A stretch of DNA of 64,000 nucleotides from contig QKEL01000014.1 in assembly GCA_003252395.1 (NCBI GenBank), positions 310,001-374,000 on the forward strand. The letters are read 5' to 3'. The DNA is from Spirochaetales bacterium (GTDB lineage: Bacteria; Spirochaetota; Spirochaetia; Treponematales; Treponemataceae). Shown piece after piece: positions 43,588 to 59,399 of the stretch. The translations under genes were made by a program, and so were the position numbers. How positions within the stretch are numbered: position 1 is the first letter of the stretch; each line of letters starts with the position of its first letter. The notes beneath the pieces were generated by a model that was not told where the DNA came from, did no database searches, and saw nothing but the letters and a program-made list of their open reading frames with translations.

Positions 43588-45308
43588 CGTCCGTCCTCCA
43601 GGGGAACCGGGATGGTCACCTCCGTGCCCGATCCCGGCGTGCTCACGATTTTCAGGCTGTATTCGCGGCCGTAAAAGGCGCGCAGCCGGTCCTGTATGTT
43701 CCGCAGCCCAATTCCGCCCACGGGGCACGAGGACTCGTCGCTCCCCGCGAGCGCGTGGCCCAAACGGTCTACCTCGTCGGAGTCGAGGCCGGGCCCGTAG
43801 TCGCGGACGCGAAGCGTCAAGGCGCCGGCGACCGCGTCGGGATGGACAGAAACCTCGATCACCGCGTCCTCCCCCAGGGGCTCTATCGCGTGGAGCACGG
43901 CGTTTTCCACCACCGGCTGGATAATCATCTTGGGGATCCTGAACTCCCAATAGCCCGGGTCCACGTCCAACGCAAGTTCGATGCGGTAGTCGTTGCGTAT
44001 GTTCATCAGGTCTATATAGCCCCGCACGTATTCGAGCTCCTCCCGAACCATGACCTGGTGGTTGCGCCAGCGGAGGCAAAAGCGCATCATGCGCCCGAGC
44101 AGGGTCACGCTTTCCACGATGTCCGCCTGGTCGGCGAGCTCGGCCTGCATCTTGATGGTCTCCAGAACGTTGTACAGGAAGTGGGCGTTGATCTGGTTTT
44201 GCATCGCCTTAATCTCGGTTTGCGTGACCAGCTCCTGCTCGGTCTTTATCTCGCCGATCAGCTCCCGGATGCGCGCGGCCATCGCGGTGAAGGCGGCGGC
44301 CATCTCCGCCACCTCGTCGTCGCCGGATACGCTCACCGACACGTCCAGGTTGCCGGAACGCAGCTCGCTCATCGCGCCCATTACCTGGTAGAGGCGGGAA
44401 AAGAGGCGTCGGGTGGTGAATTTGATCAGGACGAACATGAGAGCCACCGAGAGAAGAAGGATGATGCAGGCGCCCAGCCGAATGAAGCTCACGCTCTCGT
44501 TGATCACCGAAGGCGAGGTGGCCCGCGCGACGGTGAGCCCCAGGCGCGCTATCCGCTCGTAGGCGACGATGAGGTTTTCGTTTCCCGCCCTCGTCACGAA
44601 ACTGCCGCCCGGCTCCCCGCCGTTCCCGATCCTCGCAAGGACGGTTTCCGCCTCGGCGTTCCCCGCGCCCAGTATTTCCCCGTCCCGGGCGAGGATATCG
44701 ACGCGGAGGGCGTCGCCTTCCCGGAAGGCGAAGGGGGCGAAATCTTCCATGCGCATTCCAAGCTGGAGATACCCCACGTGCCGTTTGTTCAGCAGTATTT
44801 CCTCGGTCAGGTAGAACGCGTCGCCGCTTTTCGCGGAAAGGTTTCCCATCAGGTCGTCGCGGTAATTATAGGACCAGCGGGGAAGCGAGGCGAGGTCGAG
44901 CCGGTCCTCGCGGAACACGATGGGCCAGCGTTCCGGCACGTTGGGATTCTCTATGAAAAGGCGGATGGAATATACCTGGGGCATGGCGAATTGGAGCCGC
45001 TCGATATTCTTAATGTCGTAGCGGAGGGTCTCGATCAGGCTGTCCTCGTCTTTCGGCTCGGCGAAGAAAAAGGTCCGCAAGAGGTCGTAGTCGCTGGTAA
45101 TGATGCTTTCGAGCCGCTCCATTTGGTCCACCGCGAGCACGATTGAGCGCGCGTCGTCGGCAGCCGCCTTTCTCGCGTCGTCCAGGACCGACTCGTACAT
45201 GGAAACGCGGAAGTATTCCGAGGCGAGAAACACGAAAATCATGATCGGCAGCGCGACGATCAGGGTATACACGATGGCGATCTGCGAGGAAAAGGAAAGC
45301 CGTTTCAT
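43584..45308 (-). CDS. YesM-type sensor histidine kinase
   Basis: A 574-residue kinase of the LytS/YesM class: membrane helix about 8-30, extracytoplasmic sensor about 31-280, second helix about 285-305, HAMP (about 307-360), His_kinase domain with phosphoacceptor in QINAHFLYNVLETI, and a GHKL ATPase (VVENAVLHAIEP, DYGPGLD, GGIGLRNIQDR). Such kinases sense extracytoplasmic sugars, often through a binding protein. A TATAAT box (45328-45333) and the shared 30-nt element upstream suggest that the pair activates its own transcription. Confidence 0.93.
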   Translation of the reverse strand: MKRLSFSSQIAIVYTLIVALPIMIFVFLASEYFRVSMYESVLDDARKAAADDARSIVLAVDQMERLESIITSDYDLLRTFFFAEPKDEDSLIETLRYDIKNIERLQFAMPQVYSIRLFIENPNVPERWPIVFREDRLDLASLPRWSYNYRDDLMGNLSAKSGDAFYLTEEILLNKRHVGYLQLGMRMEDFAPFAFREGDALRVDILARDGEILGAGNAEAETVLARIGNGGEPGGSFVTRAGNENLIVAYERIARLGLTVARATSPSVINESVSFIRLGACIILLLSVALMFVLIKFTTRRLFSRLYQVMGAMSELRSGNLDVSVSVSGDDEVAEMAAAFTAMAARIRELIGEIKTEQELVTQTEIKAMQNQINAHFLYNVLETIKMQAELADQADIVESVTLLGRMMRFCLRWRNHQVMVREELEYVRGYIDLMNIRNDYRIELALDVDPGYWEFRIPKMIIQPVVENAVLHAIEPLGEDAVIEVSVHPDAVAGALTLRVRDYGPGLDSDEVDRLGHALAGSDESSCPVGGIGLRNIQDRLRAFYGREYSLKIVSTPGSGTEVTIPVPLEDGR

Positions 45309-45327: not shown

Positions 45328-45333
45328 ATTATA
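45328..45333 (-). promoter_or_regulatory. -10 hexamer TATAAT of the yesMN operon
   Basis: A consensus -10 with no good -35 (CGCTTC at the expected place). The 30-nt element begins 28 nt upstream of it, as expected for an activator-dependent promoter. Confidence 0.65.
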
Positions 45334-45360
45334 CGCCGGGCAGGGAGAATGCGAAGCGGG

Positions 45361-45390
45361 CAAAATGTCGAAAAGGTGTCTTTTTTTCGG
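45361..45390 (-). promoter_or_regulatory. Shared 30-nt element, copy 1 (yesMN)
   Basis: On the plus strand the core GGTGTCTTTTTTTCGG spans 45375-45390. The element is found, without gaps, upstream of five transcription units of the glucan locus. GGTGTC lies 42 nt from the -10. Confidence 0.75.
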
Positions 45391-45469
45391 TTTTTTTCGC
45401 GAGGAGGAGCCCCGTCACCCGCGGAAAGAAGCCCCGCGCCCGAAGGACGCGAGGCAAAGAGGGGAGGAA

Positions 45470-47170
45470 TTATTCGAAGCTAACCGCGGAAACGTAGAGG
45501 CTGCCGGTCACTTTCGACGGCGCCGTATCCGGAAGATAGGGGTTGTTGAGCTGGTCGGCGAAGGCGACCACGTATACCTTGGTCAGGTCGATTCCGGTAA
45601 AGGCGGAGAGGGGGACCGTTATGGTCTTCCAGCCGTCCGCGTCGGCCGCGGAAACGGTACCGGGGAAATCCCCGGCGGCGATCTGCAGGGCCTTCTCGGT
45701 ACCCCCGACGGAGTTCATCTTCACCACCGCTGTATTGACCGCCGCGTCGAGGTCGGAATCGTTGAAGGTAATCACGAGATTCTCGTACCCGCTTACGTCA
45801 ACGCTACCGCCGCCGTCCCGCTGCCAGAAGCAGCCGTACCACGACATGGTCGAATCGAGGGTGTAACGGATCGCGTTCGCCGCCCCGTATACGTCCTCCG
45901 CTAGGGTCGGGTCAGTGTTTCCGCCGCCCCACACGGCGCAATTGACCACGGGAAGCTCGTCGAGGGAAAGGTCGGTGAAATCAAGCCCCAGGGGAGGAAG
46001 GGTCGAGGTTACCTCCACGGCTATCCCGACGCTCTTGCCGCCGAAGGACGCGGTGATTACGGTGCTTCCGTCGGCGACCCCGGTTATCACGCCGTCGGCG
46101 ACGGTCGCGACGCCCTCGTCCCCGCTCGCCCAGGAAACCTCGGCGGCGTCCACGGCGAGCGCGCCGGGATCGGAGGTAATGGAGACGGGCTTGGAGGCGC
46201 CGACCATCAGGATTACCGAGGCCGGGGAGGCGGAGAGGGACTCGACGGGGGCCACGTAGTTCGCTTCGTAATAGACGTTGTCGAGCAGGTAATAGGAATC
46301 GTACAGGGTCGTTCCGTCGGCCTTTTTCGGATGCCAGAAACCGGCGAACACCGTGAGGTTCTCCAGGTCGACGCTGGCGTTCTTCGCCTTGAAAGAGGCC
46401 ATGGGGACGGTGTAGGTCTTCCAGCCGTCGGCCGTTTCCGGGGTAAAGTTTCTGAGGAACACGCTGGCGCCCTGGCCGTCCGACTCGATCTTGACTTCCA
46501 TGTCCGCCACGTCGCCCTTCAGGGAAAACACGAGCGCGCCGTTTTTATACGCGGCGGTATTGCCCGCGACGGGAGCGGCGGGCTTGAAGAACATACCGCC
46601 CCAGACCGTGGTCGCGCTGTAGTCGATTTTCGCGCACGTCGAGCCGTCGGCGGAATCGGAATTCTCGTTGGTAATGCCAAGGGGAAGGCTTCCGTCGTTC
46701 GCGTTCTCCGCGTGGTCCCAGGTCATGTCGGACGCGATAAGGGCGTAGGTTTCTGAGTAGATTCCCCCCGCTGAGGTATCGGCGCCTCCCGCGCCGATCG
46801 TGAGGGTATCGTCCGGGGCTTCCACGATCTCGCCGTTGAAGGTTTCGACCGCGGCGCCAAGGGCCGCGAGGGCGGCGTCTACCTGGGCTTGGGTCGCGGC
46901 GGTATTATCGTTCACGGTCTCGGCGGCGTCGATGGCGGCAAGGAAGGTTGCCTTCGCGGACGCCGAAGCTTGCCCCTCTTCGGTACCCTCGGCCGTCGCG
47001 GTATAAAGCAGGTTGGCGGCGGCGATCGCGGACGCGAGTTCGGCTTTGTCTACCGTTGTCGGGTTCGCGCTGGGGCTGGGCTTGTCGTTCGAGGACGTGG
47101 AACACGCCACGAACGCTACTGTCGCGAGCGCGGCGATTATCGCGGCGAACGTTACGTTCCTTCTTTTCAT
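45470..47170 (-). CDS. Multidomain carbohydrate-binding lipoprotein
   Basis: This 566-residue lipoprotein (lipobox FVACS, Cys22) has a FIVAR-like helical segment (about 40-115), a first beta-sandwich with DGWKTYTVPMASFK (about 130-300), a Big_2 immunoglobulin-like domain (about 305-395, VSWASGDEGVATVADGVITG in part) and a second beta-sandwich with DGWKTITVPLSAF (about 400-566). The two sandwiches look like related carbohydrate-binding modules. No catalytic site is seen, so it likely captures glucan at the cell surface. It is expressed from its own promoter with copy 2 of the 30-nt element. Confidence 0.8.
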   Translation of the reverse strand: MKRRNVTFAAIIAALATVAFVACSTSSNDKPSPSANPTTVDKAELASAIAAANLLYTATAEGTEEGQASASAKATFLAAIDAAETVNDNTAATQAQVDAALAALGAAVETFNGEIVEAPDDTLTIGAGGADTSAGGIYSETYALIASDMTWDHAENANDGSLPLGITNENSDSADGSTCAKIDYSATTVWGGMFFKPAAPVAGNTAAYKNGALVFSLKGDVADMEVKIESDGQGASVFLRNFTPETADGWKTYTVPMASFKAKNASVDLENLTVFAGFWHPKKADGTTLYDSYYLLDNVYYEANYVAPVESLSASPASVILMVGASKPVSITSDPGALAVDAAEVSWASGDEGVATVADGVITGVADGSTVITASFGGKSVGIAVEVTSTLPPLGLDFTDLSLDELPVVNCAVWGGGNTDPTLAEDVYGAANAIRYTLDSTMSWYGCFWQRDGGGSVDVSGYENLVITFNDSDLDAAVNTAVVKMNSVGGTEKALQIAAGDFPGTVSAADADGWKTITVPLSAFTGIDLTKVYVVAFADQLNNPYLPDTAPSKVTGSLYVSAVSFE

Positions 47171-47233
47171 TTCTTACACTCCTCTCATTATCTGTCCGTT
47201 CCACCCGTGGGGTGCGGTACTTTTTTCAGGTTC

Positions 47234-47239
47234 ATTTTG
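47234..47239 (-). promoter_or_regulatory. -10-like hexamer CAAAAT before the surface lipoprotein gene
   Basis: It lies 44 nt from GGTGTC of element copy 2, matching the spacing of the other copies. The leader is longer here (about 60 nt). Confidence 0.35.
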
Positions 47240-47268
47240 GGGGCCTTTACGCGAAACGGAACAGACGG

Positions 47269-47298
47269 GCGATTTTCAAAAAGGTGTCATATCTTCGG
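47269..47298 (-). promoter_or_regulatory. Shared 30-nt element, copy 2 (surface lipoprotein)
   Basis: GGTGTC is at 47283-47288 and the terminal CGG at 47296-47298. The preceding ATTTTCAAAAA agrees with copies 4 and 5. The start codon is 113 nt from GGTGTC, longer than for the other copies. Confidence 0.7.
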
Positions 47299-47322
47299 AA
47301 ACGAAATTTCTCCACCTTGCCC

Positions 47323-47369
47323 GAAAAAAAAAGACGCCCGCGCATTCCCTGGGGAAAGCGTGGGCATCC
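47323..47369 (-). terminator. Terminator after the GH64 gene
   Basis: On the minus strand an 11-bp stem (GATGCCCACGC with GCGCGGGCGTC, one mismatch) is followed by nine or ten T. Confidence 0.85.
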
Positions 47370-47394
47370 TTGAATATGCGGATTATCGGGGGGG

Positions 47395-49434
47395 TTACCA
47401 ACCGATTCCGATCACGAGGCCGCGGGGCGCGTGGCTCTCGATGAGCGTGCTGTGGTCGGCAACGTCGTCATAGCAGAACCCGTAAGCCTTACCGTCGATA
47501 TTGTGGTCGTGCCAGAACTTGGCGTAGTAATTGGCGGGACCGGCGGGATAATAGGCCGAGGCGGTCGCCCAGCTCGCGGGGCTTTGCGCGATATGGCGGT
47601 TGAGGGCGGCGCAGAGCTGGGCCTGGAGCGCGAGCTCTACCGTATTGCCCGTGGCGAGAACGCCCGAACCCTCGAAGAGCTCGTCGTTGTTCGGCTTGCC
47701 CGAAACGTAGAATTTCCCGCCGTCGCTCGTCCGGGTGAATTCGAACCGGTTATCCGAAAGCACGCGGCCGTTGAAGCGCCCCAGGGGATGGTCGAAGGAT
47801 AGGGTATTGGTCTTGTAGTAATTCCATACCTGATCCACGTAGGAGTTCATGTAAGTACCGTAGGCGCGGCCGACCCGGAAGTCGCCCTTGCAGGGGGCCA
47901 CGATGCGGTAGGGTCGCTGCACGAGGCCGCGGAATTCCGCCTGGGCAATATTCTCGAAGGCGCTGAAAATCGCCTCGCGGGTTTCGGTGATTCCCACTTT
48001 CTTGAAGGAGGCATACGACGAACCCGAGTCGTTGTACATTTCCATGGTAATTGGGAAACCGAACTGGTCCACCTGGGTGGTATTGCCCCAGAACGCGCCG
48101 GGGGCGACGGTGTACTCGATCCAGTCGTAAATCGTTGAGGCATTCGCGTCGGAGGGATTGTTCAGGTCCGGCTGAACCACCCCGATGTTGCCCGCGCCGT
48201 CCACGATTCCGCGCATGACCATCTTTTTGTCGAGGGAGATATAGAGGCGGGTCGCGGGCATGGACTTGGGCACCTGGAAGCCGGAGATATCGCTCAGGCG
48301 GTAGGACCAGGCGTCGCTGGTTTGCCCCGCGACGATGGGGACGAGGGTCCCGTCGGGCTTGAGATAGCAGAACTGGCCCGAGGCGTTTTGGCCGACGGCG
48401 CAAATCCAGATGCGGTCATTGGAGTAATTGCCCCGGGTATTGTTCGCGAATTGAAGGGTCATCTCCATGTTGGCGTTCAGGGGAATGAGGGTGTCGCTTC
48501 CGGTGCCGCCGGTATCGCCGCCCGTGCCCGAATCGAGGCGGGTAAAGGTCCAGCGCTGGGCGTTGGAGGAGTTCGAGGTCCAAAGCTGAATATTACCGCC
48601 GTTCTCGGTGGAGGAAGACGACACGTCGAGAACCTTGTTGGCGTGAACGTTGGTCAACTTAAAAGAGCCGTCGCCGTAAGGTTCGATTTTCCATTTTTGG
48701 TTTGCCTGATTGTTCCCCAAGGTCCACTGGACGATATTGGTGCCGTCGCCCGTTCCCCAGCCAGCGCCGTCAAGGGCAAGTCCGCTCCACAGGGAAACGA
48801 GATAGAAGGTTCCGTCCCCCGCGGCGACCAGTTTCCATTTCTGGTTCTCGCCGCCCACGTAATCCCATTGGTGGATATTCGCGCCGGGGTTCTTCGAGAC
48901 GTCTGCGACGTCCATGGCCTTACCCGAGCACTTTGCGACGATCTTGTAGACGGCCCCGGCGACGAGGCCGCTCGTATCTCCCGTAGAACCGCTTCCCGTT
49001 CCCGCGGAAGCGTCGCCGTAGGTAACGGCCGCCCAGCTGGCGGTGTCGGACAGGGTACCTTGGGGCACGCAGGCTTCCGCGCCGTTCTGGTTTTTAAGCA
49101 CGGCGATCCGGATTTTCGCCCCGGCGGTAAACGTCGGGCGGGAGAGGGTGTAACTGTATTTTCCGCCGGAATAGTTCATGTCCTTCGAGGCGAGCACGAG
49201 GCCGAGCCCGTTGCCCTCGCTCACGTACAGGCGGGCATAGCTTACCTGGGACCCAGCGTTCCAAGTCACGGTCATGGAGGTGCCGCTCATGCCGGTCACT
49301 TCGATCGTGCCGTTCGTTCCGGTCACCGCCCTCGCGCCGGCGGATTCAGGGGAAGCCTTCGCGTCGAAAGACGCCATGCTGCAAGAGGCGAGCAAGACTG
49401 ACGCTGCAAGCGCGAGCCCAAAGATCTTCTTCAT
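47395..49434 (-). CDS. GH64-type beta-1,3-glucanase lipoprotein with ricin-type lectin domain
   Basis: This 679-residue lipoprotein (lipobox LLASC, Cys18) has a Fn3/CBM-like domain (about 40-130), a ricin B-type beta-trefoil (about 155-305) with three QxW repeats (ENQKWKLV, ANQKWKIE, NAQRWTFT), a Gly/Thr linker and a C-terminal domain (about 320-679) that matches the GH64/thaumatin-like beta-1,3-glucanases. GH64 enzymes cut long-chain beta-1,3-glucans into short oligosaccharides. The start ATG at 49434 has an AAGGAG site. The domain call rests on overall pattern; catalytic residues were not individually placed. Confidence 0.78.
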   Translation of the reverse strand: MKKIFGLALAASVLLASCSMASFDAKASPESAGARAVTGTNGTIEVTGMSGTSMTVTWNAGSQVSYARLYVSEGNGLGLVLASKDMNYSGGKYSYTLSRPTFTAGAKIRIAVLKNQNGAEACVPQGTLSDTASWAAVTYGDASAGTGSGSTGDTSGLVAGAVYKIVAKCSGKAMDVADVSKNPGANIHQWDYVGGENQKWKLVAAGDGTFYLVSLWSGLALDGAGWGTGDGTNIVQWTLGNNQANQKWKIEPYGDGSFKLTNVHANKVLDVSSSSTENGGNIQLWTSNSSNAQRWTFTRLDSGTGGDTGGTGSDTLIPLNANMEMTLQFANNTRGNYSNDRIWICAVGQNASGQFCYLKPDGTLVPIVAGQTSDAWSYRLSDISGFQVPKSMPATRLYISLDKKMVMRGIVDGAGNIGVVQPDLNNPSDANASTIYDWIEYTVAPGAFWGNTTQVDQFGFPITMEMYNDSGSSYASFKKVGITETREAIFSAFENIAQAEFRGLVQRPYRIVAPCKGDFRVGRAYGTYMNSYVDQVWNYYKTNTLSFDHPLGRFNGRVLSDNRFEFTRTSDGGKFYVSGKPNNDELFEGSGVLATGNTVELALQAQLCAALNRHIAQSPASWATASAYYPAGPANYYAKFWHDHNIDGKAYGFCYDDVADHSTLIESHAPRGLVIGIGW

Positions 49435-49453
49435 ATCGTATTCTCCTTTACGC

Positions 49454-49459
49454 ATTGTC
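49454..49459 (-). promoter_or_regulatory. -10-like hexamer GACAAT of the GH64 gene
   Basis: It lies 45 nt from element copy 3. A TACACT at 49465-49470 is an alternative. Confidence 0.4.
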
Positions 49460-49489
49460 CGGCCAGTGTACTTTCTAGGGAAAGTGGCG

Positions 49490-49519
49490 CAATTTTCGGA
49501 AGGGGGTATTTTTTTTCGG
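49490..49519 (-). promoter_or_regulatory. Shared 30-nt element, copy 3 (GH64)
   Basis: The most divergent copy in the middle (GGGTAT in place of GGTGTC), but the flanks AATTTTC and TTTTTTTCGG match and the distance to the ATG (70 nt) agrees. Confidence 0.6.
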
Positions 49520-49527
49520 CTCAGGGC

Positions 49528-49549
49528 AAAAAAAAGGGCCCGAAGGCCC
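49528..49549 (-). terminator. Terminator after the small carbohydrate-binding lipoprotein gene
   Basis: On the minus strand GGGCC-TTCG-GGCCC is followed by eight T, 8 nt upstream of element copy 3. Confidence 0.88.
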
Positions 49550-49578
49550 ATACAACGTGCGGTATCTCCAATAACTAA

Positions 49579-50259
49579 TTAAAAGGTAACGTGCTCGAAT
49601 ACATTCACGTTCGCGTCGGATCCATCAAGGAAAGCGATATCCTTATATTCCGCCCAGCGCCCCTCGATGCAGGGAAGGACGAAGGTAAAGGCGACTTTGA
49701 TCTTCCTGTTGACGGCGGAAAGCGAGGTTGTGGGTATCGTTACGGTTTTCCATCCCTCCGAGTCGGCGGCGCTCACCGTAAAAGTCGAAAGGGCTGATTC
49801 GGGAATCGCGTCCGCGGTTAGGCTCACGAGCTTAAATTTAAGTTCGGCCGTGCTGCAGTTGTCGGATCGAACCTTAAAACGGACCTTCGCGACGTCGGTA
49901 AAGTCGATATAGGAACCGGCCGCGGCATTGTCCGGCAGCTGGGCCAGGGTCCCGGCGCTCCAACCCTTGCCCGTAACCGCGCTCGCCTTGATCCCTCCGG
50001 AGTCCGCGTTTTCCAGATTGGCCGTCGCTTCCCAATCCCCGATCGCGACATTGGGCTTTAGGCCGCCGAGTATCTGCTCCCATCGTCCATAGGTAATCGA
50101 ATTATCGACGAATAAATTGGGCGCAAAATCCTCAAAGAGCGCGCCGTCCCCGCCCGCCGGGTCACCGGTATTTACGGGGTTTCCGGGAGCCGCGCCTTGA
50201 GAGCAGGCAGACAGCAACGCGACGGCGGCGGCCGCTAAGAATGACAGTTTTATTTTCAT
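49579..50259 (-). CDS. Small carbohydrate-binding-like lipoprotein
   Basis: A 226-residue lipoprotein (lipobox LLSAC, Cys19). The mature part is one beta-sandwich that contains EGWKTVTIPTTSL, the same motif as in the two sandwiches of the 45470-47170 protein, so the three modules are probably homologous. No catalytic residues are seen. It likely binds glucan at the cell surface. A GGAGGAGA site precedes the ATG. It forms its own transcription unit with element copy 4. Confidence 0.75.
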   Translation of the reverse strand: MKIKLSFLAAAAVALLSACSQGAAPGNPVNTGDPAGGDGALFEDFAPNLFVDNSITYGRWEQILGGLKPNVAIGDWEATANLENADSGGIKASAVTGKGWSAGTLAQLPDNAAAGSYIDFTDVAKVRFKVRSDNCSTAELKFKLVSLTADAIPESALSTFTVSAADSEGWKTVTIPTTSLSAVNRKIKVAFTFVLPCIEGRWAEYKDIAFLDGSDANVNVFEHVTF

Positions 50260-50284
50260 GGATGAATCTCCTCCGAGTTGCTGT

Positions 50285-50290
50285 ATTGTC
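50285..50290 (-). promoter_or_regulatory. -10-like hexamer GACAAT of the small lipoprotein gene
   Basis: It lies 43 nt from GGTGTT of element copy 4, matching the spacing in the other units. Confidence 0.4.
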
Positions 50291-50318
50291 GCGCGGGTCG
50301 GAGGTTCGGAGAAGCGGG

Positions 50319-50348
50319 AAGATTTTCACAAAGGTGTTGGAATTTCGG
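50319..50348 (-). promoter_or_regulatory. Shared 30-nt element, copy 4 (small lipoprotein)
   Basis: ATTTTCACAAAGGTGTT and the terminal TTTCGG match the consensus. GGTGTT starts 74 nt from the start codon. Confidence 0.68.
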
Positions 50349-50382
50349 GATTCGGCTCTGAGGCGATAACGGTTACGTCATT

Positions 50383-50765
50383 CTATTGGTATACGCGGAC
50401 GCAATCGATTTCCATCACGGCCTCATCGATATCCTCGTCCACGGTTCCGCCGAGCTACTTGCGGCCCGCGGTACACCCCCTCGAACCGAATCCGGATTTC
50501 CGGTGTATGGTACCGAAGGGCGAGCCCATTCCGGAGAGCCGACAACGCTCCATCAGGTCTATCTCGCCGTTATCCGGCCAGTATCGCCGGCCAGGTACCG
50601 TTTTACATGGGGAATTTCGCGCGAACCTCAAGCCGGCCGTACAGCCAGTCATGCTTGCCCTTCGTATGGAGCCGCGCGCTGGTCCAATACCCGCGTGCGA
50701 CCAGTGGGTTTGGCATGGCGATCGTTCTCCGCTGCCTTCAAATTCGTCCGATCACAGCAATGTCG
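50383..50765 (-). pseudogene. Decayed GH16 beta-glucanase gene
   Basis: Fragments of a GH16 enzyme can be read on the minus strand in changing frames: TLL-stop-SDEFEGSG (the usual WSDEF with Trp changed to TGA at 50752-50754), SARLHTKGKHDWLYGRLEV and RAKFP followed by TAA, YWPDNGEIDLMER with the catalytic GEIDxME motif and GTIH, and GGTVDEDIDEAVMEIDCVRV before the final TAG. There are at least three stops, two frameshifts and a deletion of about 80 residues between GTIH and the C-terminus. It is not a recent copy of the intact GH16 next door, whose sequence differs (GINKQEWTYGYMEAKIK). Open frames on the plus strand here are accidental. Confidence 0.85.
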
Positions 50766-50792
50766 TATACATACTCATCCCACGCTCACCGA

Positions 50793-50825
50793 TACGGGGG
50801 CCCCGTTCATCGCGGCGCCCCCGTA
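50793..50825 (-). other. Strong stem-loop after the GH16 gene
   Basis: A perfect 9-bp stem (TACGGGGGC with GCCCCCGTA) starts 12 nt after the GH16 stop. It lacks a T run, so it may protect the 3' end rather than terminate. Confidence 0.5.
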
Positions 50826-50837
50826 CCGTTTTAAAGC

Positions 50838-51671
50838 TTACCGGTACACCCGCACGTAGTCAACTTCCATTATGGCCTGGGTGAGGGACGGGGAGATGGA
50901 TCCCCCAAGATTGCCCCCCATGGCCACGTTAAGGATGAAGTGGAAATCCTGGTCAAACGGCCATACCTTCCAGTCGCCGGTTTTCCGGTACGGAATGCCG
51001 ACCGGCACGCCGTCCACGAACCAGCTTATGGAGTCATCGGTCCATTCCACGCCGTAACGGTGAAATTCCGAGGTGGCGGTGGGTATCTCTTTCTTCCCGA
51101 TGGACGGATACGCGTGGGCGGCAATGCTCTCGCCGAAATGCACCGTACCGTACACCTGATTGACGCCCACGGTGCCCGGAGAATATTCCATGATATCGAT
51201 CTCTCCGCTTCGGGGCCACGAGTCATACACGCTGTCCGTGGGCATCATCCAGAATGCGGGCCAGACGCCGTTCCCCGCCGGAAGCTTTATTTTCGCTTCC
51301 ATGTACCCGTAGGTCCATTCCTGCTTGTTGATTCCCCGCAAGCGGGCGCTCGTCCAGGAGCCGTTCGCCTTAACCGCCTTCACCTTGAGCGTTCCGTTGT
51401 CTACCCAGGAGTTCGCGCGGGTATCGGTATAGGTTTGAACCTCGTTGTTCCCCCAGCCGCCCGCGCCGAGCTGATAGCCCCAATTCGACCCAGAGGGAGC
51501 GTTGAGCGTCCCCGCGGCGTCGAACTCGTCGGACCACACCAGGGTCTGGTAGCGCTCGGAAGCGGAAACCCCTTCGGGCGCGCCTTCTATGATTTCTTCC
51601 TCCGGCGGGATGAACATGCACCCCGCGAAAAGGAAGGCCGCCGCCGTGAGACCGGCGGCGCGTTTCGCCAT
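50838..51671 (-). CDS. GH16 beta-1,3-glucanase lipoprotein
   Basis: A 277-residue lipoprotein (lipobox FLFAGC, Cys18) with a complete GH16 domain. WSDEFD opens the domain, and the catalytic motif SGEIDIMEY gives nucleophile Glu157, Asp159 and acid/base Glu162. GTVHFGE and the C-terminal MEVDYVRVYR match laminarinases (endo-beta-1,3-glucanases). It should cut beta-1,3-glucan at the cell surface. The ATG at 51671 has GGAAGG upstream; ATG at 51686 is an alternative. It follows the glycosidase-barrel gene by 38 nt in the same operon. Confidence 0.92.
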   Translation of the reverse strand: MAKRAAGLTAAAFLFAGCMFIPPEEEIIEGAPEGVSASERYQTLVWSDEFDAAGTLNAPSGSNWGYQLGAGGWGNNEVQTYTDTRANSWVDNGTLKVKAVKANGSWTSARLRGINKQEWTYGYMEAKIKLPAGNGVWPAFWMMPTDSVYDSWPRSGEIDIMEYSPGTVGVNQVYGTVHFGESIAAHAYPSIGKKEIPTATSEFHRYGVEWTDDSISWFVDGVPVGIPYRKTGDWKVWPFDQDFHFILNVAMGGNLGGSISPSLTQAIMEVDYVRVYR

Positions 51672-51709
51672 TTTCGTACCTTCCATAGTTAACTGCCTTT
51701 TGTCCGAAA

Positions 51710-54700
51710 TTAATACGTCACGTTCACGTACATTGAAAGCTCCGAGTATTCCCTGCCGTCCGGGTCCGGGGAACCCCCGTAAATATTCCAGGGATCGCTT
51801 GAATACTCTCCGAATTTCCAGCCCTGCCACTTCACGCCGACCCGGTTTGTCGCCTTGGCGAACAGGGGCGTGTCAAAGCCGTAAGAAACGTCCAGGTTCC
51901 ACTGGGCGGGCCAGGTTGTATTGAAGCCCCGGACCCAAGCGGGCTCCAGCCACTTATCCGCGACCCACGCGCCGTCAAGCATCCACGTGCGGTACCGGAG
52001 CTTCGCGCCCGCCTGCCAGTAGTCCACGATCCGCGTATCCATGCCGGCGCTGCCCTGATGCCCCGCCTCGGCGGTCAGAATGGCCCGGAAGCTCGGGAAG
52101 GGGTTGGTCACGATACGGGTGCCGACCTGCCAAAGGTCGCGCTGCTCCGGAAGCCCTGACGCGAAGGAAGTCCAGGTTCCGTCGGCCATTTTAAAGGCCA
52201 TGCGGTCCGTTTCGCCCGCGTAGAGGGTATACAATCCGGTCAGGCTCGCGGCGAATTTCGCGCCCTCGATATCGTCGCCGTTCCACTCATGGAACCAGGT
52301 GGCCCCTTCGGGGTCATAGGTGAGCACGCCCTCAAACTCGATCGCCTGACGGTTGGCGAACACTATGAAGGGAGAGCCAAAGCCCTCGTGGGAATCCGTT
52401 AGCGCGCGATCCGCGGGTTTTACCAGGGGCATACGGGAGCGCGCGACGGGCTTGAAGTTCAGGAAACCGTAATTGATGTCCGCGCCAAACTCCACTTCCT
52501 GCCGGTTTCCAGACCCGGAGTCGCCGGTGAAAAAACTACCGCGCACCACGGCGGGATTCGTGTCGGTCACGAGTCCGCGATGGATAAACTTTCCGTACAC
52601 GTAGGCCTTGCTCAGGATGTTCGTCCCGAGTTCCACCGAACCGCCAAGGGTATCGAGGTCCTGTACGGCCGCCCAGGTTCCGTCGGAAAGCCTGTACGGC
52701 GCCCCTACCTTCTCGTCGCCCGCGTACAGGATTCCCGTCTTGAGCGTCACGAAGGGATAGAGGGACGCTTCCCCGTACAGAGACGCCTTGCGCCCGGGAC
52801 CGTACGAATTGTGCGGATTTTCGGCCAGGTCGGATCGGGTACCGAACTCCTCCGCGAAGGTCAGTCCTAGATTAAACGAAGGCATGGGGACCGAGCGGGA
52901 GGGAAACGACTTCCACCAATTCGCGGCGATCTGGGGTTCCGCGGATCCGTAAATCTCGGGACCGCCGATTACCTGCAAGCCGGAAAGGAGACCTTTCCCG
53001 ATAAACTCCACGGCGATCGGCGCGAGGGATCCATAGGTGTCGTATCCGATGATATCGAAGGCCTCGTGGTTGATGTTGAATACGTCGCCCGAGGTCTCGA
53101 AGGCCGCGTGCTCCGCGTGGTAATAGCCGTTCAGGGAGAAGGAAGGATCGTCGAACCTGAAGGCGGCCGAATACAGGGACGCGTTGTACGCGATTTCGCC
53201 CGTCGTCTTGTCCTGATTGTAAATCGGGTAAATCTCGGCCATCTTGGTAGGCGCCGGATTCGACCACACGCGGAAATGGGCCTCGGCGCTCAGGTTTTCG
53301 GCGGGCGCCGCGGCGATGCCGATATCGGCCTCGCTGTAGGGCAAAAAGTTTATGCCCTCCTTCACGCTCCGCCCGGCGGCGTCAAGCCCGTCGAGACTGT
53401 CCTTATCAAGACCGGCGAGCGCCCCCGCCGTCACGCTGATCCCGGAAATCCTGATCGCGTCGCGCTCGTTGATCATCTCCTTGATGCCCGGCTCGGTGCC
53501 CCGCTGGAGGGCCAGGGCAAAGTCGAGATTGGCGAAGGCGGCGTCCACGTCGGCCTGGGTCGAGTCGTAGAGCGAAACCTGCCAGATATCCTTCATGAGG
53601 TAATAGGCGGCGCGCGGCATGCGCTTGGCGATCCCGTTTTCCTTCAGGGCGCTTTGGGCGACGATCCCGAACCATTCCTCGTTCATGTTGTTCACGCCGA
53701 TCCGGTAGTCCAGCTCGTAGCCCGCGTTGGACCAGGAACCGAGGACGTTATGCACGTCGAGTTCCTTGTTCTGGTACTGCTTCCACCATTCGTCAACCCA
53801 CTCGAACACGTACCCGCCGAGCATGTTGGCGGACTTTCCCTTGCCGTAGCCCTGGGAGTAGAGCTCTTCCCACTGGCTCTTGAGGTAGGTCGCCTGCATG
53901 TACTGGTCTTCCTGCCGGGTCAGGGCGTTGTACGCGTCGGCCCCGGCCTCGGTGAGCACCACCGGCCGGTCGAGCGTATCCGCGATTCCCTGGTAAAAGG
54001 AATCGTAGAACCGGTACCCGCGGTAGGCGTTCACGCCCAGGATATCCAGGGAGGGGCACAGCTCGGCGATCAGGTCGACGTACTGCGTGTCGCCGTTGAT
54101 AAGGCCGACGGGCCGCAGGGGGTCCACTTCCTTGAGGGCGGCCATGGCCTCCTCGAAGAGGCTGTAGAGGTAGCCCGCGCGCACGGCGTTTTGCTCGCCC
54201 GTGGGGAGGTTTTCGATTTCCGAACCCGACCACACGAGGCCGTAGTTGCTTTCGTTGCCCAGCATGTACATGAGCACGCCCTTGGTACCGCGGTAGGTTT
54301 CGGCGGTTTTCCTGGCCTGGGCGACGAGGGCCTGCCGGGTATAGAGGTCGGAGTAATCGGTGACGGCGTACCATTTGCCGTTTACGGTCATGCCGTAACG
54401 CCCCAAGAGGTCGTTGATCATGGTGTAGATGCCGTACTTCGTGTAGATGTACTCGACCCAGCGCGGGGGAATCGTCGAGAACGCGCGGATCGTGTTGACG
54501 CCCATGGCCTTGAGAAGGGGCATGTCCACGTCCAGCATCCGCATGACGTAGTCGTCCGACTGGGCCCATAGGTTGAAGGTATGGGTCTCGCCTATCGGCG
54601 TGCAGGACCACACGACGCCCTTTACCTCGAAGGGCTTATTGTCCACCAGGAGCCGCCAGCCGTCCGCGTCCTTTTTCGTCTGCACGTATTGCGCGCTCGC

Positions 54701-54763
54701 GGGGAAGGCCGCCGCGAGGGCGACGGCCGCGGCGAGCAGGGCCTTTATGATCGATCGCTTCAT
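51710..54763 (-). CDS. Clan-A glycoside hydrolase fused to an outer-membrane beta-barrel
   Basis: This 1017-residue protein has a signal peptide (cut near ASA, residue 24), a TIM-barrel glycosidase domain (about 30-410) and a long C-terminal half (about 470-1017) of alternating amphipathic strands that ends in MYVNVTY, the terminal aromatic expected of an outer-membrane barrel. Likely acid/base is Glu171 (MLGNESNYGL) and nucleophile Glu272 (VLTEAGAD), as in GH2-like enzymes. The fusion would hold the enzyme in the outer membrane. The exact GH family is uncertain; context suggests beta-1,3-glucan. The ATG overlaps the CBM9 gene stop by four bases. Confidence 0.78.
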   Translation of the reverse strand: MKRSIIKALLAAAVALAAAFPASAQYVQTKKDADGWRLLVDNKPFEVKGVVWSCTPIGETHTFNLWAQSDDYVMRMLDVDMPLLKAMGVNTIRAFSTIPPRWVEYIYTKYGIYTMINDLLGRYGMTVNGKWYAVTDYSDLYTRQALVAQARKTAETYRGTKGVLMYMLGNESNYGLVWSGSEIENLPTGEQNAVRAGYLYSLFEEAMAALKEVDPLRPVGLINGDTQYVDLIAELCPSLDILGVNAYRGYRFYDSFYQGIADTLDRPVVLTEAGADAYNALTRQEDQYMQATYLKSQWEELYSQGYGKGKSANMLGGYVFEWVDEWWKQYQNKELDVHNVLGSWSNAGYELDYRIGVNNMNEEWFGIVAQSALKENGIAKRMPRAAYYLMKDIWQVSLYDSTQADVDAAFANLDFALALQRGTEPGIKEMINERDAIRISGISVTAGALAGLDKDSLDGLDAAGRSVKEGINFLPYSEADIGIAAAPAENLSAEAHFRVWSNPAPTKMAEIYPIYNQDKTTGEIAYNASLYSAAFRFDDPSFSLNGYYHAEHAAFETSGDVFNINHEAFDIIGYDTYGSLAPIAVEFIGKGLLSGLQVIGGPEIYGSAEPQIAANWWKSFPSRSVPMPSFNLGLTFAEEFGTRSDLAENPHNSYGPGRKASLYGEASLYPFVTLKTGILYAGDEKVGAPYRLSDGTWAAVQDLDTLGGSVELGTNILSKAYVYGKFIHRGLVTDTNPAVVRGSFFTGDSGSGNRQEVEFGADINYGFLNFKPVARSRMPLVKPADRALTDSHEGFGSPFIVFANRQAIEFEGVLTYDPEGATWFHEWNGDDIEGAKFAASLTGLYTLYAGETDRMAFKMADGTWTSFASGLPEQRDLWQVGTRIVTNPFPSFRAILTAEAGHQGSAGMDTRIVDYWQAGAKLRYRTWMLDGAWVADKWLEPAWVRGFNTTWPAQWNLDVSYGFDTPLFAKATNRVGVKWQGWKFGEYSSDPWNIYGGSPDPDGREYSELSMYVNVTY

Positions 54764-55578
54764 CGTTTGCCTCCCTTGAGCGCGTCGGATAGCGGAACGA
54801 CCCTGCCGTCGCCCCAGGTGCTCGCGTCCATGTACGCCGCGTCTTTCTCGCTCATCCAGTGCACGAGCCGCGACCGTTCCTTGCCGCCGTCGGCGTCGTT
54901 GATCTGGAATTCTAGCCTGACCTTTTGCCCGTTTTTTAACGGCTTCGCGTTTAGGAGGCTTACGGGTATCGCCGCCTCGATACGGTAGCCCGCGTCGCCG
55001 TAAACGATCGCGGCCTTAATCGAATCGTTGGGGACGGTCGAATCGTTCACGCACGCCTCGTAGGCGCCCTTGGCGGCCTTGCTCTTGGGCACGATGCGCA
55101 CGCGCTTGTCGGTATTCCTGTAAAAGGTGTGGTAGAGCGTGTCCGTACCAAAAAAGAACTCGATCGAGTCGCCGCGCCAGCCCTGCGGGGCAGGAAGCGC
55201 GTTCACGCCGGGATCGTCGTCGGCAACGTCGGCGAAGAGGTAGACGTTCGCGCCGTCGGTGCGGGTCACGAAAAGGCCGTCGGTGTTTTTCGCGTCGAAT
55301 AGGCCGCCGTACACCATCACCCGGGCGTTCACCCCGGGAAGGCCTTCCCAGTCGGAAAAGTCGCCGTCTATAACGGGCGCCTCGTCCTTGGAAAAGTACA
55401 CGGGGGCAACCTGCCCCACCGGGGGCTTGTTCGATTGGGATACGGCGTTCGGGTCCACGGAAGGCCGCCATGGGGGATCGATGATCTTCTTTTCCATGGC
55501 GGTCAGGCACGAGGAAAGGGCGAACGCCGCGAGGGCCAACGCGCATAGCTTGAGCGTGCCCTGAATTTTCGTCGTCAT
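54760..55578 (-). CDS. CBM9-like domain lipoprotein
   Basis: A 272-residue lipoprotein (lipobox ALSSC, Cys24) with one CBM9/DOMON-like sugar-binding domain (about 65-265). Landmarks are APVIDGDFSDWEGLPG, FVTRTDGANVYLFADVADDD and the WRGDSIEFFFGTD strand. It likely binds glucan chains or reducing ends and may work with the glycosidase-barrel protein, with which its gene overlaps by four bases. No element copy is found upstream, so it is probably read through from the transporter operon despite the terminator at 55639-55669. Confidence 0.83.
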   Translation of the reverse strand: MTTKIQGTLKLCALALAAFALSSCLTAMEKKIIDPPWRPSVDPNAVSQSNKPPVGQVAPVYFSKDEAPVIDGDFSDWEGLPGVNARVMVYGGLFDAKNTDGLFVTRTDGANVYLFADVADDDPGVNALPAPQGWRGDSIEFFFGTDTLYHTFYRNTDKRVRIVPKSKAAKGAYEACVNDSTVPNDSIKAAIVYGDAGYRIEAAIPVSLLNAKPLKNGQKVRLEFQINDADGGKERSRLVHWMSEKDAAYMDASTWGDGRVVPLSDALKGGKR

Positions 55579-55638
55579 TCGGGGTCTCCAGTCCGCTTCG
55601 AGAGCGGGGGGGGTATGGTATCTTAAAAAAATAGCCTG

Positions 55639-55669
55639 AAAAAAAAGCCGTCAGGAATCTGACGGCTTT
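55639..55669 (-). terminator. Terminator between transporter and CBM9 genes
   Basis: On the minus strand AAAGCCGTCAG-ATTC-CTGACGGCTTT is followed by a T run. It may set lower expression of the downstream enzymes by partial read-through. Confidence 0.9.
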
Positions 55670-55695
55670 CGTCGGTTCGGGACCGGCTCGGGACC

Positions 55696-57327
55696 CTACT
55701 TGAGGCCGAGCTTTCCCTTATTGACCTTCATCATTTCGGTCTGCTTGGCGAGCACCTTGTCGGCGCCCTTGGCCTTGCGGAAGGCCTGCCAATCGGACCA
55801 GATCCGGTCGAAGTCTGACTCCGATTTCGCGCGGAGCAAGAGGGGCAGGTCCTTGCCCCAGCGGCGGGCAAGCTCTTCGGAGATCAGGGCCTCGTCCGTT
55901 CCGGGCGCCAGTTGGGTAAGCCCGTCGTAGGCGGCGAAAGAGGTTACGTAGGGGCGGGTCCACAGCTGGGGCTGCTCGAGGGCGGGGGAATACTTCGCGC
56001 CGAACTGTCCCTGCCAGGCGGTGTCCATGAGCATCCAGTAGGTGTACATGACGCCGTATTGCGTTTCCTGGGCGTTTTTGTCCGTAGAGTCCAGCTTCTC
56101 GACCGCGGGAAGGAGCTGGGGCTTTCCGTTCACCGTCTCGTAGGTCACGCCGGGCACGCCGAAACAGGTGTCCATCTGGCCTTCCTCGCTGATAAGGTAG
56201 GTGAGGAACTGGATGGCGCGGGCCTTGTCCTTGCAGTTTTTGGAAATCATGGTAACGGTCCAGCCGGCGATACCGCCGCCGCCGAGGGTCGGGTTCGCGC
56301 CCTTGGAATTGCGGGGGCCCTCGACCGCGACGTAAACCGTGTTCGGGTCTTTATTGTACAGGGCCATCTGGGCGGCCTGCATGTCCCAGTTTTGGTAGAA
56401 CATGGCGAAGTAGCGGCCCTGGGCGATCTTTTCCTCCATCTGGGAACGCTTGTCCACGAACACGTCGGTGGCGAGGAGCCCTTCCTGGTTGGCCTGGCGG
56501 AATACTTTCAGCCAGCGCACGTATTCGGGATCGCTACCCCGGTCGTAGAATTTGCCGTCCTTTTCGTTGGGAATGGCGAGGAAATTCTGGATGTACTTTT
56601 CGAGGGAAACGTTGCCGGTATCGGTAAACTCCTGGAACCCGACGGGGATTAGGGGCTGGCCGTTCACGGTGCCGAACTTGGCCTTGGCGGCCCGAAGGGC
56701 GCCGAGGAAGCCCTCGGGGGTAGTCATGTCGGGCTTGCCGAGGGCCTCGTACATATCCTTGCGGACGAGGAAAGTCTCGTTGGAGGTGAGCTTTCCCTTA
56801 TAGGTTACGTAGTCCTGCGGGGTGTATGAGGCGTTGGGATACCCGTAGACCTTCCCGTCGGGCTGCCGGTACCAGCCGAGCTTTTCGGGGTTCGCGACCT
56901 TGAAGAAGATCGGGTCGTAGTTCTGGGCAAGCTCGTCCAGGGGAAGCACGAGGCCCGCGTCTATCATCATCCCCACCTGGCTTTCCCACCAACCGAGGGT
57001 GATAAGGTCGGGAAGGGTATCGCCGGCGATCATTGAGTTGAGCTTTTCGGCCTCGTTGCCCGCGGGCACCACGAAGCGCACGTTCACGCCGGTCTTTTCG
57101 GTGACGTACTTGGACACCGCCGAGTCTCCCCATTGCCGCGCGAACCAGCTGAAGTTCACGTACCAGTCGAAGGTAATCGGCTTGTCCTTGTTGAGTTTCC
57201 AGCCCGGGGTCGAACCGGTTCCGCTCACGGTTGCCGCGGATTGCCCCTTGGCGTCCTGTTTTCCCGCCGCGAACGTCAGCGGGGCCACCAGGCCCAGCGC
57301 GAGCGCGACCGCGATCAGTTTCTTCAT
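55696..57327 (-). CDS. Extracellular solute-binding protein of the LplA type
   Basis: This 543-residue family 1 binding protein supplies the LplBC permease. The signal peptide ends LTFAAGKQ with no lipobox, so it should be periplasmic rather than lipid-anchored. Length and features such as MIAGDTLPDLITLGWWESQ and GIAGWTVTMISKNC match the LipO/LplA group that binds oligosaccharides. The start is the ATG at 57327 with an AGGAGGAG site. It follows lplC by 64 nt. No ATP-binding subunit is encoded here, as is usual for this group; a shared MsmK-like ATPase elsewhere is expected. Confidence 0.9.
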   Translation of the reverse strand: MKKLIAVALALGLVAPLTFAAGKQDAKGQSAATVSGTGSTPGWKLNKDKPITFDWYVNFSWFARQWGDSAVSKYVTEKTGVNVRFVVPAGNEAEKLNSMIAGDTLPDLITLGWWESQVGMMIDAGLVLPLDELAQNYDPIFFKVANPEKLGWYRQPDGKVYGYPNASYTPQDYVTYKGKLTSNETFLVRKDMYEALGKPDMTTPEGFLGALRAAKAKFGTVNGQPLIPVGFQEFTDTGNVSLEKYIQNFLAIPNEKDGKFYDRGSDPEYVRWLKVFRQANQEGLLATDVFVDKRSQMEEKIAQGRYFAMFYQNWDMQAAQMALYNKDPNTVYVAVEGPRNSKGANPTLGGGGIAGWTVTMISKNCKDKARAIQFLTYLISEEGQMDTCFGVPGVTYETVNGKPQLLPAVEKLDSTDKNAQETQYGVMYTYWMLMDTAWQGQFGAKYSPALEQPQLWTRPYVTSFAAYDGLTQLAPGTDEALISEELARRWGKDLPLLLRAKSESDFDRIWSDWQAFRKAKGADKVLAKQTEMMKVNKGKLGLK

Positions 57328-57391
57328 ATTGCTCCTCCTTACTATGCCGGCCTCCCCGCGGGGCGGCCCCAAACGGTATCTATGCTACGGA

Positions 57392-58309
57392 TCAGCCCTT
57401 TACCGAGCCGATCATGACTCCCTTCACGAAATACTTTTGCAGGAACGGATACACGCAGATTATGGGCGCGGTGGTCACCACCATGGTGGCGAGCTTCACG
57501 GACTGCGAATTCACCTGGGCGCCCGAAATGCCCACCGGCAGGCTCACGACGGTCTTGGACGCGGACGCGCTGGCGATGATCCGGTACAGGAAGGTCTGGA
57601 TCGGCTGCAGGTCCGGGTTGTTAACGAAAATGACGCCCGAGAAATAGTCGTTCCAGTGCCCGACCCCGTTAAAGAGGGCGATGGTCGCGAGGACAGGCCC
57701 GGAAAGGGGCAGCACGATGCGCGCGAATATCCTGAACTCGTTCGCGCCGTCTATCTTCGCCGACTCCTCGAGGGCCGGCGGCATCTCCCGGAAAAAGGAC
57801 ATGAAAATGATCAGGTTCCAAAAGTTGAACAGCGAGGGGACGATGTACACCCAGAAGGTATCGTAGAGCCCGACGTTCTTTAAAAGGATGAAGTAGGGAA
57901 TGAGGCCGCCGCCGAAGAACATGGTGACGGTGCCCATGAGAAGGTACCAGCGATGGCCCATGATATGGCGCTTCGAGAAGGCGAACGCCACCATTGAGGT
58001 AAAGAACACGCTCGTGACCGTGCCGAGCAGGGTCCGCCATATGGTAACGTTGAAGGCCTGCAGTATCGCCTTGTCCTGGAATACCGTGCGGTAGCTGGCG
58101 ACGCTGAATTTCCTCGGCCACCAGTACACGCCGCCCATGAGGGTGTCGCTGGATTCGTTGAACGAGAGCACCACGGTGTACCACACGGGGTACAGCGTCG
58201 CGAAGCACAGGACCGCCATGAACACGACCAGGGCCTTGTCGAATAGCCGCATGTCGTTGAGCTTTCCGCCCGTCTTGCCCTTTCGTCCCATAACCTGATT
58301 ATCCGCCAT
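57392..58309 (-). CDS. ABC sugar permease, LplC/YtcP type
   Basis: A 305-residue CUT1 permease with six membrane helices and the EAA loop EESAKIDGANEFRIFARIVL that docks the ATPase. It forms a heterodimer with the LplB-like protein for oligosaccharide import. The start is the ATG at 58309 (MADNQVMG); the frame stays open for 200 nt upstream into the preceding gene but without conservation. It is 20 nt after lplB. Confidence 0.92.
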   Translation of the reverse strand: MADNQVMGRKGKTGGKLNDMRLFDKALVVFMAVLCFATLYPVWYTVVLSFNESSDTLMGGVYWWPRKFSVASYRTVFQDKAILQAFNVTIWRTLLGTVTSVFFTSMVAFAFSKRHIMGHRWYLLMGTVTMFFGGGLIPYFILLKNVGLYDTFWVYIVPSLFNFWNLIIFMSFFREMPPALEESAKIDGANEFRIFARIVLPLSGPVLATIALFNGVGHWNDYFSGVIFVNNPDLQPIQTFLYRIIASASASKTVVSLPVGISGAQVNSQSVKLATMVVTTAPIICVYPFLQKYFVKGVMIGSVKG

Positions 58310-58329
58310 AGTCGATTCTCCCGTCGTCG

Positions 58330-59286
58330 TTAGAACAGCGATACGTCGTTGATCCGACGCGTCAGTTGGTTGGTGGTATACAGCAAGACGAACGCGAAGA
58401 TCGACTTGAAGAAACCGATGGCGGTGGCGTAGGAGAACCGCATGCTCCGCATGGCCACGTTGAATACGTATATGTCCAAGACATTGCTCCTCGGGGCGTT
58501 GAGGGGGTTCCAAAGAACGAAAATCTGGTCGAAATTCGAGTTGAGGAGCCCGCCCACCGCGAGTATCAAAAGGATGGTCACCGTGCCCTTAATGCAGGGC
58601 AGGGTAATGGAGACCATCTGGCGGAACCGGCCCGCCCCGTCCACCCGCGCCGCCTCGTAGAGCTCCTGGTCTATTCCCGCGATCGCGGCAAGGTAAATGA
58701 TCGCCGACCAGCCGAGTTCCTTCCATATATCAGAGACGATAACGATGCCCCAAAAATACTCGGGATAGGCGAGGAAGGTGATGCCTTCCTTGAGTACGCC
58801 CATACCCACCAAAAGGTCGTTGATGAAGCCCGTATCGGAGAGCCAGGTGGTCAGGATTCCCCCGAGGATTACCCAGGAAAGGAAATGGGGCAAATACGAG
58901 ATGGTCTGGACGTACCGCTTGAACTTCGCGTTCCGCACCTCGTTGAGCAGAAGGGCGAAGATGATCGGCAGGGGAAAGCCGATGGCGAGCTTAAGCACGC
59001 TCAGGCCCAGGGTATTCATGAGGATATTCGCGAATTCCGGATCGCGCAAAAAGGCGATAAAGTGCTGGAACCCGTAATTGTCCGCCCAGGGGGAAGCGAG
59101 GAATTTCAAGCTAAAAAGCTTCTCGGTGATTTTGTAGTTTTTCTTGAAACCGGTGATTATTCCGTACATCGGGGCATAGTTGAAGACCAGCATCCAGATA
59201 ACGCCGCACCATGCCATGACTTGGAGGTATCGTTCCTCTTTCAGGCGCTGCATAAACGTTTTGGAGCTCGGCGGTTTCTGTCTCAT
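58330..59286 (-). CDS. ABC sugar permease, LplB type
   Basis: A 318-residue CUT1 permease with six helices, the LplB signature near the N-terminus (FNYAPMYGIITGFKKNY) and the EAA loop YEAARVDGAGRFRQMVSITL. It is the first gene of the transporter operon. A GAGAGG site lies 6 nt before the ATG, a TATACT box at 59308-59313 and element copy 5 upstream. Its substrate is expected to be beta-1,3-gluco-oligosaccharides by context; this is inference. Confidence 0.92.
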   Translation of the reverse strand: MRQKPPSSKTFMQRLKEERYLQVMAWCGVIWMLVFNYAPMYGIITGFKKNYKITEKLFSLKFLASPWADNYGFQHFIAFLRDPEFANILMNTLGLSVLKLAIGFPLPIIFALLLNEVRNAKFKRYVQTISYLPHFLSWVILGGILTTWLSDTGFINDLLVGMGVLKEGITFLAYPEYFWGIVIVSDIWKELGWSAIIYLAAIAGIDQELYEAARVDGAGRFRQMVSITLPCIKGTVTILLILAVGGLLNSNFDQIFVLWNPLNAPRSNVLDIYVFNVAMRSMRFSYATAIGFFKSIFAFVLLYTTNQLTRRINDVSLF

Positions 59287-59307
59287 AACGAACCTCTCAT
59301 GGTTTCG

Positions 59308-59313
59308 AGTATA
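59308..59313 (-). promoter_or_regulatory. -10 hexamer TATACT of the transporter operon
   Basis: It lies 44 nt from GGTGTC of element copy 5 and gives a short leader that still includes the Shine-Dalgarno. Confidence 0.55.
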
Positions 59314-59342
59314 GCCGTGCCCGTTTTATTCCGGCCATCGGG

Positions 59343-59372
59343 AGAGATTTCAAAATGGTGTCTTTTTTTCTG
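59343..59372 (-). promoter_or_regulatory. Shared 30-nt element, copy 5 (transporter operon)
   Basis: The GGTGTCTTTTTTTC core is identical to copy 1; the preceding GATTTCAAAAT agrees with copies 2 and 4. GGTGTC starts 71 nt from the start codon. Confidence 0.75.
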
Positions 59373-59390: not shown

Positions 59391-59399
59391 CATTTTTTA

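Follow-up and report, generated by a model that had tools for sequence, protein, structure and literature searches.

Which regulator reads a promoter element that recurs five times within a single glucan locus of a Spirochaetales bacterium, and which genes does that element bring under common control? The DNA in question is a 64,000-nucleotide (nt) stretch of the bacterium's genome (‘the window’, in whose numbering the element copies and their neighbouring genes are placed). The original prediction, which recognized an ungapped 30-nt element shared by five promoters, had attributed the pattern to a single activator, the AraC-type regulator YesN encoded in the same locus. That attribution has gained support: the element is very probably the operator of YesN, which would use it to activate a predicted beta-1,3-glucan regulon that includes its own yesM-yesN (yesMN) operon. 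This reading is drawn from the restriction of the copies to the locus, their 19-base-pair (bp) direct repeat, the fixed distance to the -10 hexamer, the poor -35 regions and the co-inheritance of the element with YesN.

All five copies are found where they were first placed (45361, 47269, 49490, 50319 and 59343), all on the minus strand of the window, and in an unprompted repeat search of the 28-kb locus they form a direct-repeat family larger than any other. The element is real but longer than the 30 nt originally drawn: it occupies about 36 nt, with the consensus CCGAAA-N5-ACACC-TTTYTGAAA-N9-CT in the sense of transcription, and reaches a conserved CT at positions 35-36. Across 61 sites from the window genome and its relatives, the other conserved blocks are CCGAAA (positions 1-6), ACACC (12-16) and GAAA (22-25), with weaker conservation of a C at position 31. 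In this register the copies span 59337..59372 (CAGAAAAAAAGACACCATTTTGAAATCTCTCCCGAT, upstream of the gene run permB-permC-SBP-CBM9-GH158-GH16, where SBP denotes a solute-binding protein, CBM a carbohydrate-binding module and GH a glycoside hydrolase), 50313..50348 (upstream of a gene for a 226-aa lipoprotein), 49483..49519 (upstream of a GH64 gene), 47263..47298 (upstream of a gene for a 566-aa CBM-like lipoprotein, with a long leader) and 45355..45390 (upstream of yesM-yesN, a putatively autoregulatory copy). Orthologous sites precede permB in more than 20 relatives and yesM in many. The alignment is indeed ungapped for four of the copies, but the one at 49490 has one base more than the others in the spacer from CCGAAA to ACACC and fits best after a one-base shift. 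When leave-one-out weight matrices were used to score 127,942 positions, the four regular copies, each held out, ranked at or beside the remaining copies, and the copy at 49490 ranked eighth in the register first given to it.

The element is a direct repeat whose period is 19 bp, its profile showing a self-similarity of 0.245 at a shift of 19, against 0.12 at the neighbouring shifts and less than 0.06 at all others. The half-sites would be roughly CCGAAA-N5-ACACC followed by YTGAAA-N9-CT; being 19 bp apart, they would look out from nearly the same side of the helix. A direct repeat of about two helical turns is what is expected of the operator of an AraC-type dimeric activator. In class II activation by AraC itself, at araI1-I2, there are likewise two direct-repeat half-sites, of which the proximal one abuts or overlaps the -35 region, although AraC is ligand-bound rather than phosphorylated and its half-sites differ in sequence and period from those found here.

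The distance between the element and the -10 hexamer is almost constant. Counted from the first base of the element, the hexamer (on the minus strand throughout) begins at position 60 before permB (TATACT, 59308..59313), at 59 before the 226-aa lipoprotein gene (GACAAT, 50285..50290), at 61 before the GH64 gene (GACAAT, 49454..49459; 60 if the extra base is allowed for), at 60 before the CBM-like lipoprotein gene (CAAAAT, 47234..47239) and at 58 before yesM (TATAAT, 45328..45333), and in 44 of the 61 sites it begins at 58-60. The start codon follows 82-89 nt from the same first base, or 128 nt in the case of the copy at 47269; the shorter distances reported at the outset (42-45 nt to the -10 hexamer and 67-74 nt to the start codon) are correct if counted from the ACACC core. 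The -35 regions, described as poor from the beginning, are so at all five promoters (best match 2-4 of 6), none of which has the recognizable -35 box of an ordinary, activator-free sigma-70 promoter. With the -10 hexamer at 58-60, the element spans about -70 to -35, and its proximal half-site lies where the missing -35 box would be. Class II AraC-type activators place the proximal half-site at -35, and both features expected of such an operator, a fixed -10 distance and a site abutting or overlapping -35, are found here; placement upstream, ending at -35, is the predicted geometry of an activator. A further candidate, an RNA element, was rejected: no Rfam match was found between 42000 and 64000, and the element also lies upstream of the transcript.

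The restriction to co-functional genes expected of a regulon element extends across the whole genome. Covariance models without structure were used for the scans. The first (R1), a sequence-only model built from the five window copies, returned those five copies and nothing else when the 3.41-Mb genome was searched at E<=10, with E values from 8e-5 (best) to 2e-3 (worst), and the second (R2), a 64-position model for which most of the sites came from other genomes, returned the same five alone at E<=1. All matches lie in the locus and none at unrelated genes, which leaves the assignment to YesN standing.

The element is also inherited together with YesN. Six of the 58 relatives examined first have a YesN orthologue, and the best R1 matches outside the window genome fell in those six. 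In a survey of 274 genomes of the family Treponemataceae (orthologues accepted at E<=1e-75), YesN was found in 48; R1, trained on the window alone, matched 29 of the 47 other carriers against 14 of 226 non-carriers (Fisher p about 1e-16, a value that overstates the number of independent events, as the genomes share ancestry). A second search recovered pieces of YesN in three of those 14 non-carriers (G080, G169 and G216), two more (G060 and G185) have true locus promoters on contigs that end in or beside the expected yesMN position, and some of the others are chance matches in or beside unrelated genes. A matrix seeded from permB sites found a site at threshold in 37 of 44 yesN loci, a count that is descriptive because of that seeding, the R1 comparison being the unbiased test. 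Looking for the element beside yesN in the genomes of relatives, as suggested with the original prediction, gave a strongly positive result, and the element precedes yesM even where the neighbouring transporter differs: six loci whose yesMN pair has no importer of the usual kind alongside still carry it there (L163, L182, L190, L191, L192 and L195).

Among the relatives, the arrangement of a phosphorylase gene divergent from permB-permC-SBP-yesM-yesN is widespread. Besides permB and yesM, the genes with a site upstream include CBM9, GH16, GH64, lipoprotein, SBP and GH30-like genes and, at one locus (L216), a gene resembling an endo-1,6-beta-glucanase. One genome (G081; L246, 7575-14900) has a second cluster, SBP-CBM9-GH158-GH16-lipoprotein, with two sites, roughly 0.57 Mb from yesN by the short way if the contig is circular, and in another (G286) the importer site is on a contig other than that of yesN; sites so unlinked argue for a trans-acting factor rather than mere linkage. 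Such importers come without an ATPase, and in a single case (L249:13148-13174, genome G194) a strong match stands upstream of a UgpC/MsmX-type ATP-binding cassette (ABC) ATPase gene whose contig does not carry the glucan locus; the CT and -10 hexamer of this match are less clear than at other sites. The ATPase absent from the importer may, to judge from this match, belong to the regulon in G194. At a different locus (L194:12172-12269, genome G127), two overlapping copies 19 nt apart stand before yesM and a divergent copy before a small gene, in an array-like arrangement.

A related form of the element occurs in the Lachnospiraceae. Of 33 Lachnospiraceae loci whose YesN is the next-closest, 12 reached 17 bits with the Treponemataceae-trained matrix, a score attained by 11 of 660 dinucleotide shuffles; loci with a distant, Paenibacillus-type YesN gave low scores. 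The Lachnospiraceae site reads CTAAAAAAATGACACC-TTTTTAAAAA...CATT...TATAAT, with the -10 hexamer mostly at position 58. L028, L030, L066, L076 and some 20 further loci have it, in most cases about 7 kb upstream of yesN, where it stands before sugar ABC binding-protein genes; at L016 it precedes a GH94 phosphorylase gene (by Pfam), and at L040 apparently a phosphorylase gene too. A model of this site gave one match, the locus site, in a 6.2-Mb genome (G298) at E<=0.1, and 3 to 6 matches, mostly weak, in three other genomes. We lean, with some reserve, towards an ancient YesN whose tandem GAAA...ACACC site at a fixed -10 distance was kept across Spirochaetota and Lachnospiraceae (Bacillota) despite changes in the sugar, in the genes and in part of the second half-site, a proposal based on sequence and spacing only. 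If it is true, the targets of many uncharacterized gut and environmental YesMN systems could be read directly from their DNA.

The domains of the proposed partners suit the role assigned to them. YesN (42163..43587, minus strand), proposed as the element's binder from its domain matches and co-occurrence, has an N-terminal receiver domain (Response_reg PF00072, E 1.4e-27) and a C-terminal AraC-type double helix-turn-helix (HTH_18 and HTH_AraC matches). Its gene is adjoined and overlapped by yesM (43584..45308, minus strand), encoding a sensor kinase with HAMP, His_kinase (PF06580) and HATPase_c domains, and the pair is conserved in relatives; the ‘own copy’ credited to the YesN gene does exist, but before yesM, the first gene of this pair. 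YesM, a membrane kinase, would sense a beta-1,3-glucan fragment directly or via a binding protein, and would phosphorylate YesN, as is usual for the family. Two YesN molecules would then bind the element head to tail as a tandem dimer, the promoter-proximal one contacting RNA polymerase at -35, as the geometry suggests. YesN would thereby turn on the importer run (the GH158-like and GH16 genes included), the GH64 gene, two surface lipoproteins and yesMN itself, in a positive loop.

Several observations weigh against this scheme. While two of the five -10-like hexamers originally noted are good (TATAAT and TATACT), the remaining three (GACAAT twice and CAAAAT) are weak, matching only 4 of 6. 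The R1 genome scan scored 150 of 399 first-look candidates, so that weak, diverged sites could be missed. No site reaches the threshold in seven of the 44 yesN loci, of which three are on stretches shorter than 10 kb. Conversely, three genomes (G185, 92% complete; G194; G243) have a strong permB site without a detectable YesN, although incompleteness may explain these exceptions. The same three genomes lend weight to the idea that another regulator, encoded elsewhere, binds the element and controls the glucan genes and yesMN, with YesN a passenger or acting at another site, and many other AraC-type and response regulators are indeed encoded in the genome. Such a regulator is nevertheless unlikely, given that element and YesN co-occur across the family, that yesM itself is preceded by the element at loci whose neighbouring genes are unrelated, that a 19-bp direct repeat suits an AraC-type dimer, and that the Lachnospiraceae form lies near the next-closest YesN clade while distant-YesN loci score low.

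Distinctly less probable still is that YesN binds the element mainly as a repressor or as a dual regulator. The sign of regulation is not fixed by sequence alone, but repressors usually bind over or downstream of the promoter, whereas this site stands upstream of the -10 hexamer, ends at -35 and keeps a rigid register, at promoters whose -35 boxes are poor. AraC-type systems of Caldicellulosiruptor bescii with the same upstream tandem placement are inferred to be activating (PMC8579813), and both CuaR (PMC10384115) and XydR (PMC3572039) are activators. An unusual core promoter that an alternative sigma factor reads unaided by a specific activator would account for the rigid spacing between element and -10 hexamer, yet is scarcely credible when only five instances occur in the genome, at one locus, and the distribution tracks YesN. 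A repeat of 36 nt, besides, exceeds in length and in upstream distance what a sigma factor recognizes. Chance AT-rich stretches or functionless duplicated promoter DNA, to which the long A runs (which inflate similarity) and the duplication of lipoprotein and glucanase genes in such loci (a GH16 remnant, for example) might point, are strongly disfavoured, the element being unique in the genome, the window 60% G+C, and the element conserved both at orthologous promoters of genomes whose YesN proteins share only about 40% identity and in front of genes that are not homologous.

Activation of a beta-1,3-glucan regulon by YesN would have several partial precedents. CuaR, a YesN/AraC-family regulator of Ruminiclostridium cellulolyticum, activates an importer-phosphorylase operon (PMC10384115). 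CuaDSR and its target cuaABC-cbpA resemble the spirochaete locus in that such a regulator and a sensor activate an ABC oligosaccharide importer and a phosphorylase, and in that the importer's ATPase gene is located elsewhere. They differ in the substrate (cellobiose, as opposed to the predicted beta-1,3-glucan), in that cuaDSR is constitutive whereas yesMN bears the element, and in CuaD, a second binding protein that aids sensing; none is evident in the spirochaete locus, whose sole SBP sits with the permeases. XydS/XydR of Clostridium cellulolyticum (PMC3572039) is alike in having an AraC/XylS-type response regulator that activates polysaccharide-degradation genes, with repeats near -35 boxes, but XydR does not act on its own genes and no clear consensus was found, in contrast to the sharp consensus, yesMN included, found here. 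AviRS, MosSQ and AxeRS of C. bescii (PMC8579813) have tandem-repeat sites, inferred to be activator sites, upstream of oligosaccharide-importer promoters; the phylum and substrates are others. Pneumococcal YesNM (TCS09) and RR07 (TCS07) are YesMN-type systems whose motifs were also sought by comparing promoters (PMC11034029); for pneumococcal YesN that comparison gave no clear repeat, and the candidate RR07 motif, CTWWWWWWAG, differs from the spirochaete element.

Our literature searches returned no paper combining Treponema, laminarin and two-component, and, of the 6 papers in which motif letters occur, none is titled on such a regulator. The type of switch is familiar and the specific code seems unreported; it is notable for being sharp, unique within its genome and widespread. 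Polysaccharide-eating bacteria very commonly have YesMN systems, but few of these have a defined operator; here a probable operator, its geometry and its targets have been derived from sequence and are conserved in dozens of genomes. An unstudied spirochaete system can be provisionally given a substrate class, the beta-1,3-glucans (laminarin, for example), and a search model becomes available for YesN regulons in the Treponemataceae and, in its related form, in the Lachnospiraceae.

The predicted substrate, beta-1,3-glucan, follows from the presence of GH64, a GH149 phosphorylase, a weak GH158 match and GH16 in the locus. The transporter run (minus strand) begins with ABC permease B (permB, 58330..59286) and continues with permease C (permC, 57392..58306), the SBP (55696..57372), a CBM9-like lipoprotein (54760..55578) and a 1017-aa protein weakly similar to GH158 endo-beta-1,3-glucanases (51710..54763), before ending with a GH16 glucanase (50838..51713, domain matches). 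The three other predicted targets, also on the minus strand, are the 226-aa lipoprotein (49579..50259), for which a domain search gave no family match, the GH64 beta-1,3-glucanase (47395..49434), with ricin-type lectin domains, and the CBM-like lipoprotein (45470..47170), with Big_2 and weak carbohydrate-binding-domain matches. Judging from gene spacing, there would be five units with one element each: the run from permB to GH16, the genes of the 226-aa lipoprotein, of GH64 and of the CBM-like lipoprotein, and the yesMN pair.

The GH149 1,3-beta-D-glucan phosphorylase gene (59537..62953, plus strand; above the curated cut-off and strongly similar to PDB 6hq6) is divergent, and no element copy faces in its direction. 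Between permB and this gene (59379-59428), a perfect palindrome, GCAACCGGTTGC, is followed by a good sigma-70 promoter for the phosphorylase (TTGACA, 17 nt, CATACT). As a part of the system the palindrome was set aside; it occurs exactly once in the genome, has 16 matches with at most one mismatch against 17 for a reversed control, and among the intergenic regions of 22 relatives is kept in the same-genus G003 alone. It may be a candidate LacI-type operator, which would place the phosphorylase under a second regulator. Finally, a decayed second GH16-like gene lies at 50380-50840 on the minus strand, just downstream of the intact GH16 gene and upstream of the element copy at 50319, with such fragments as SDEFEG, NGEIDLME and AVMEIDCVRVYQ in one frame that is interrupted by stops.

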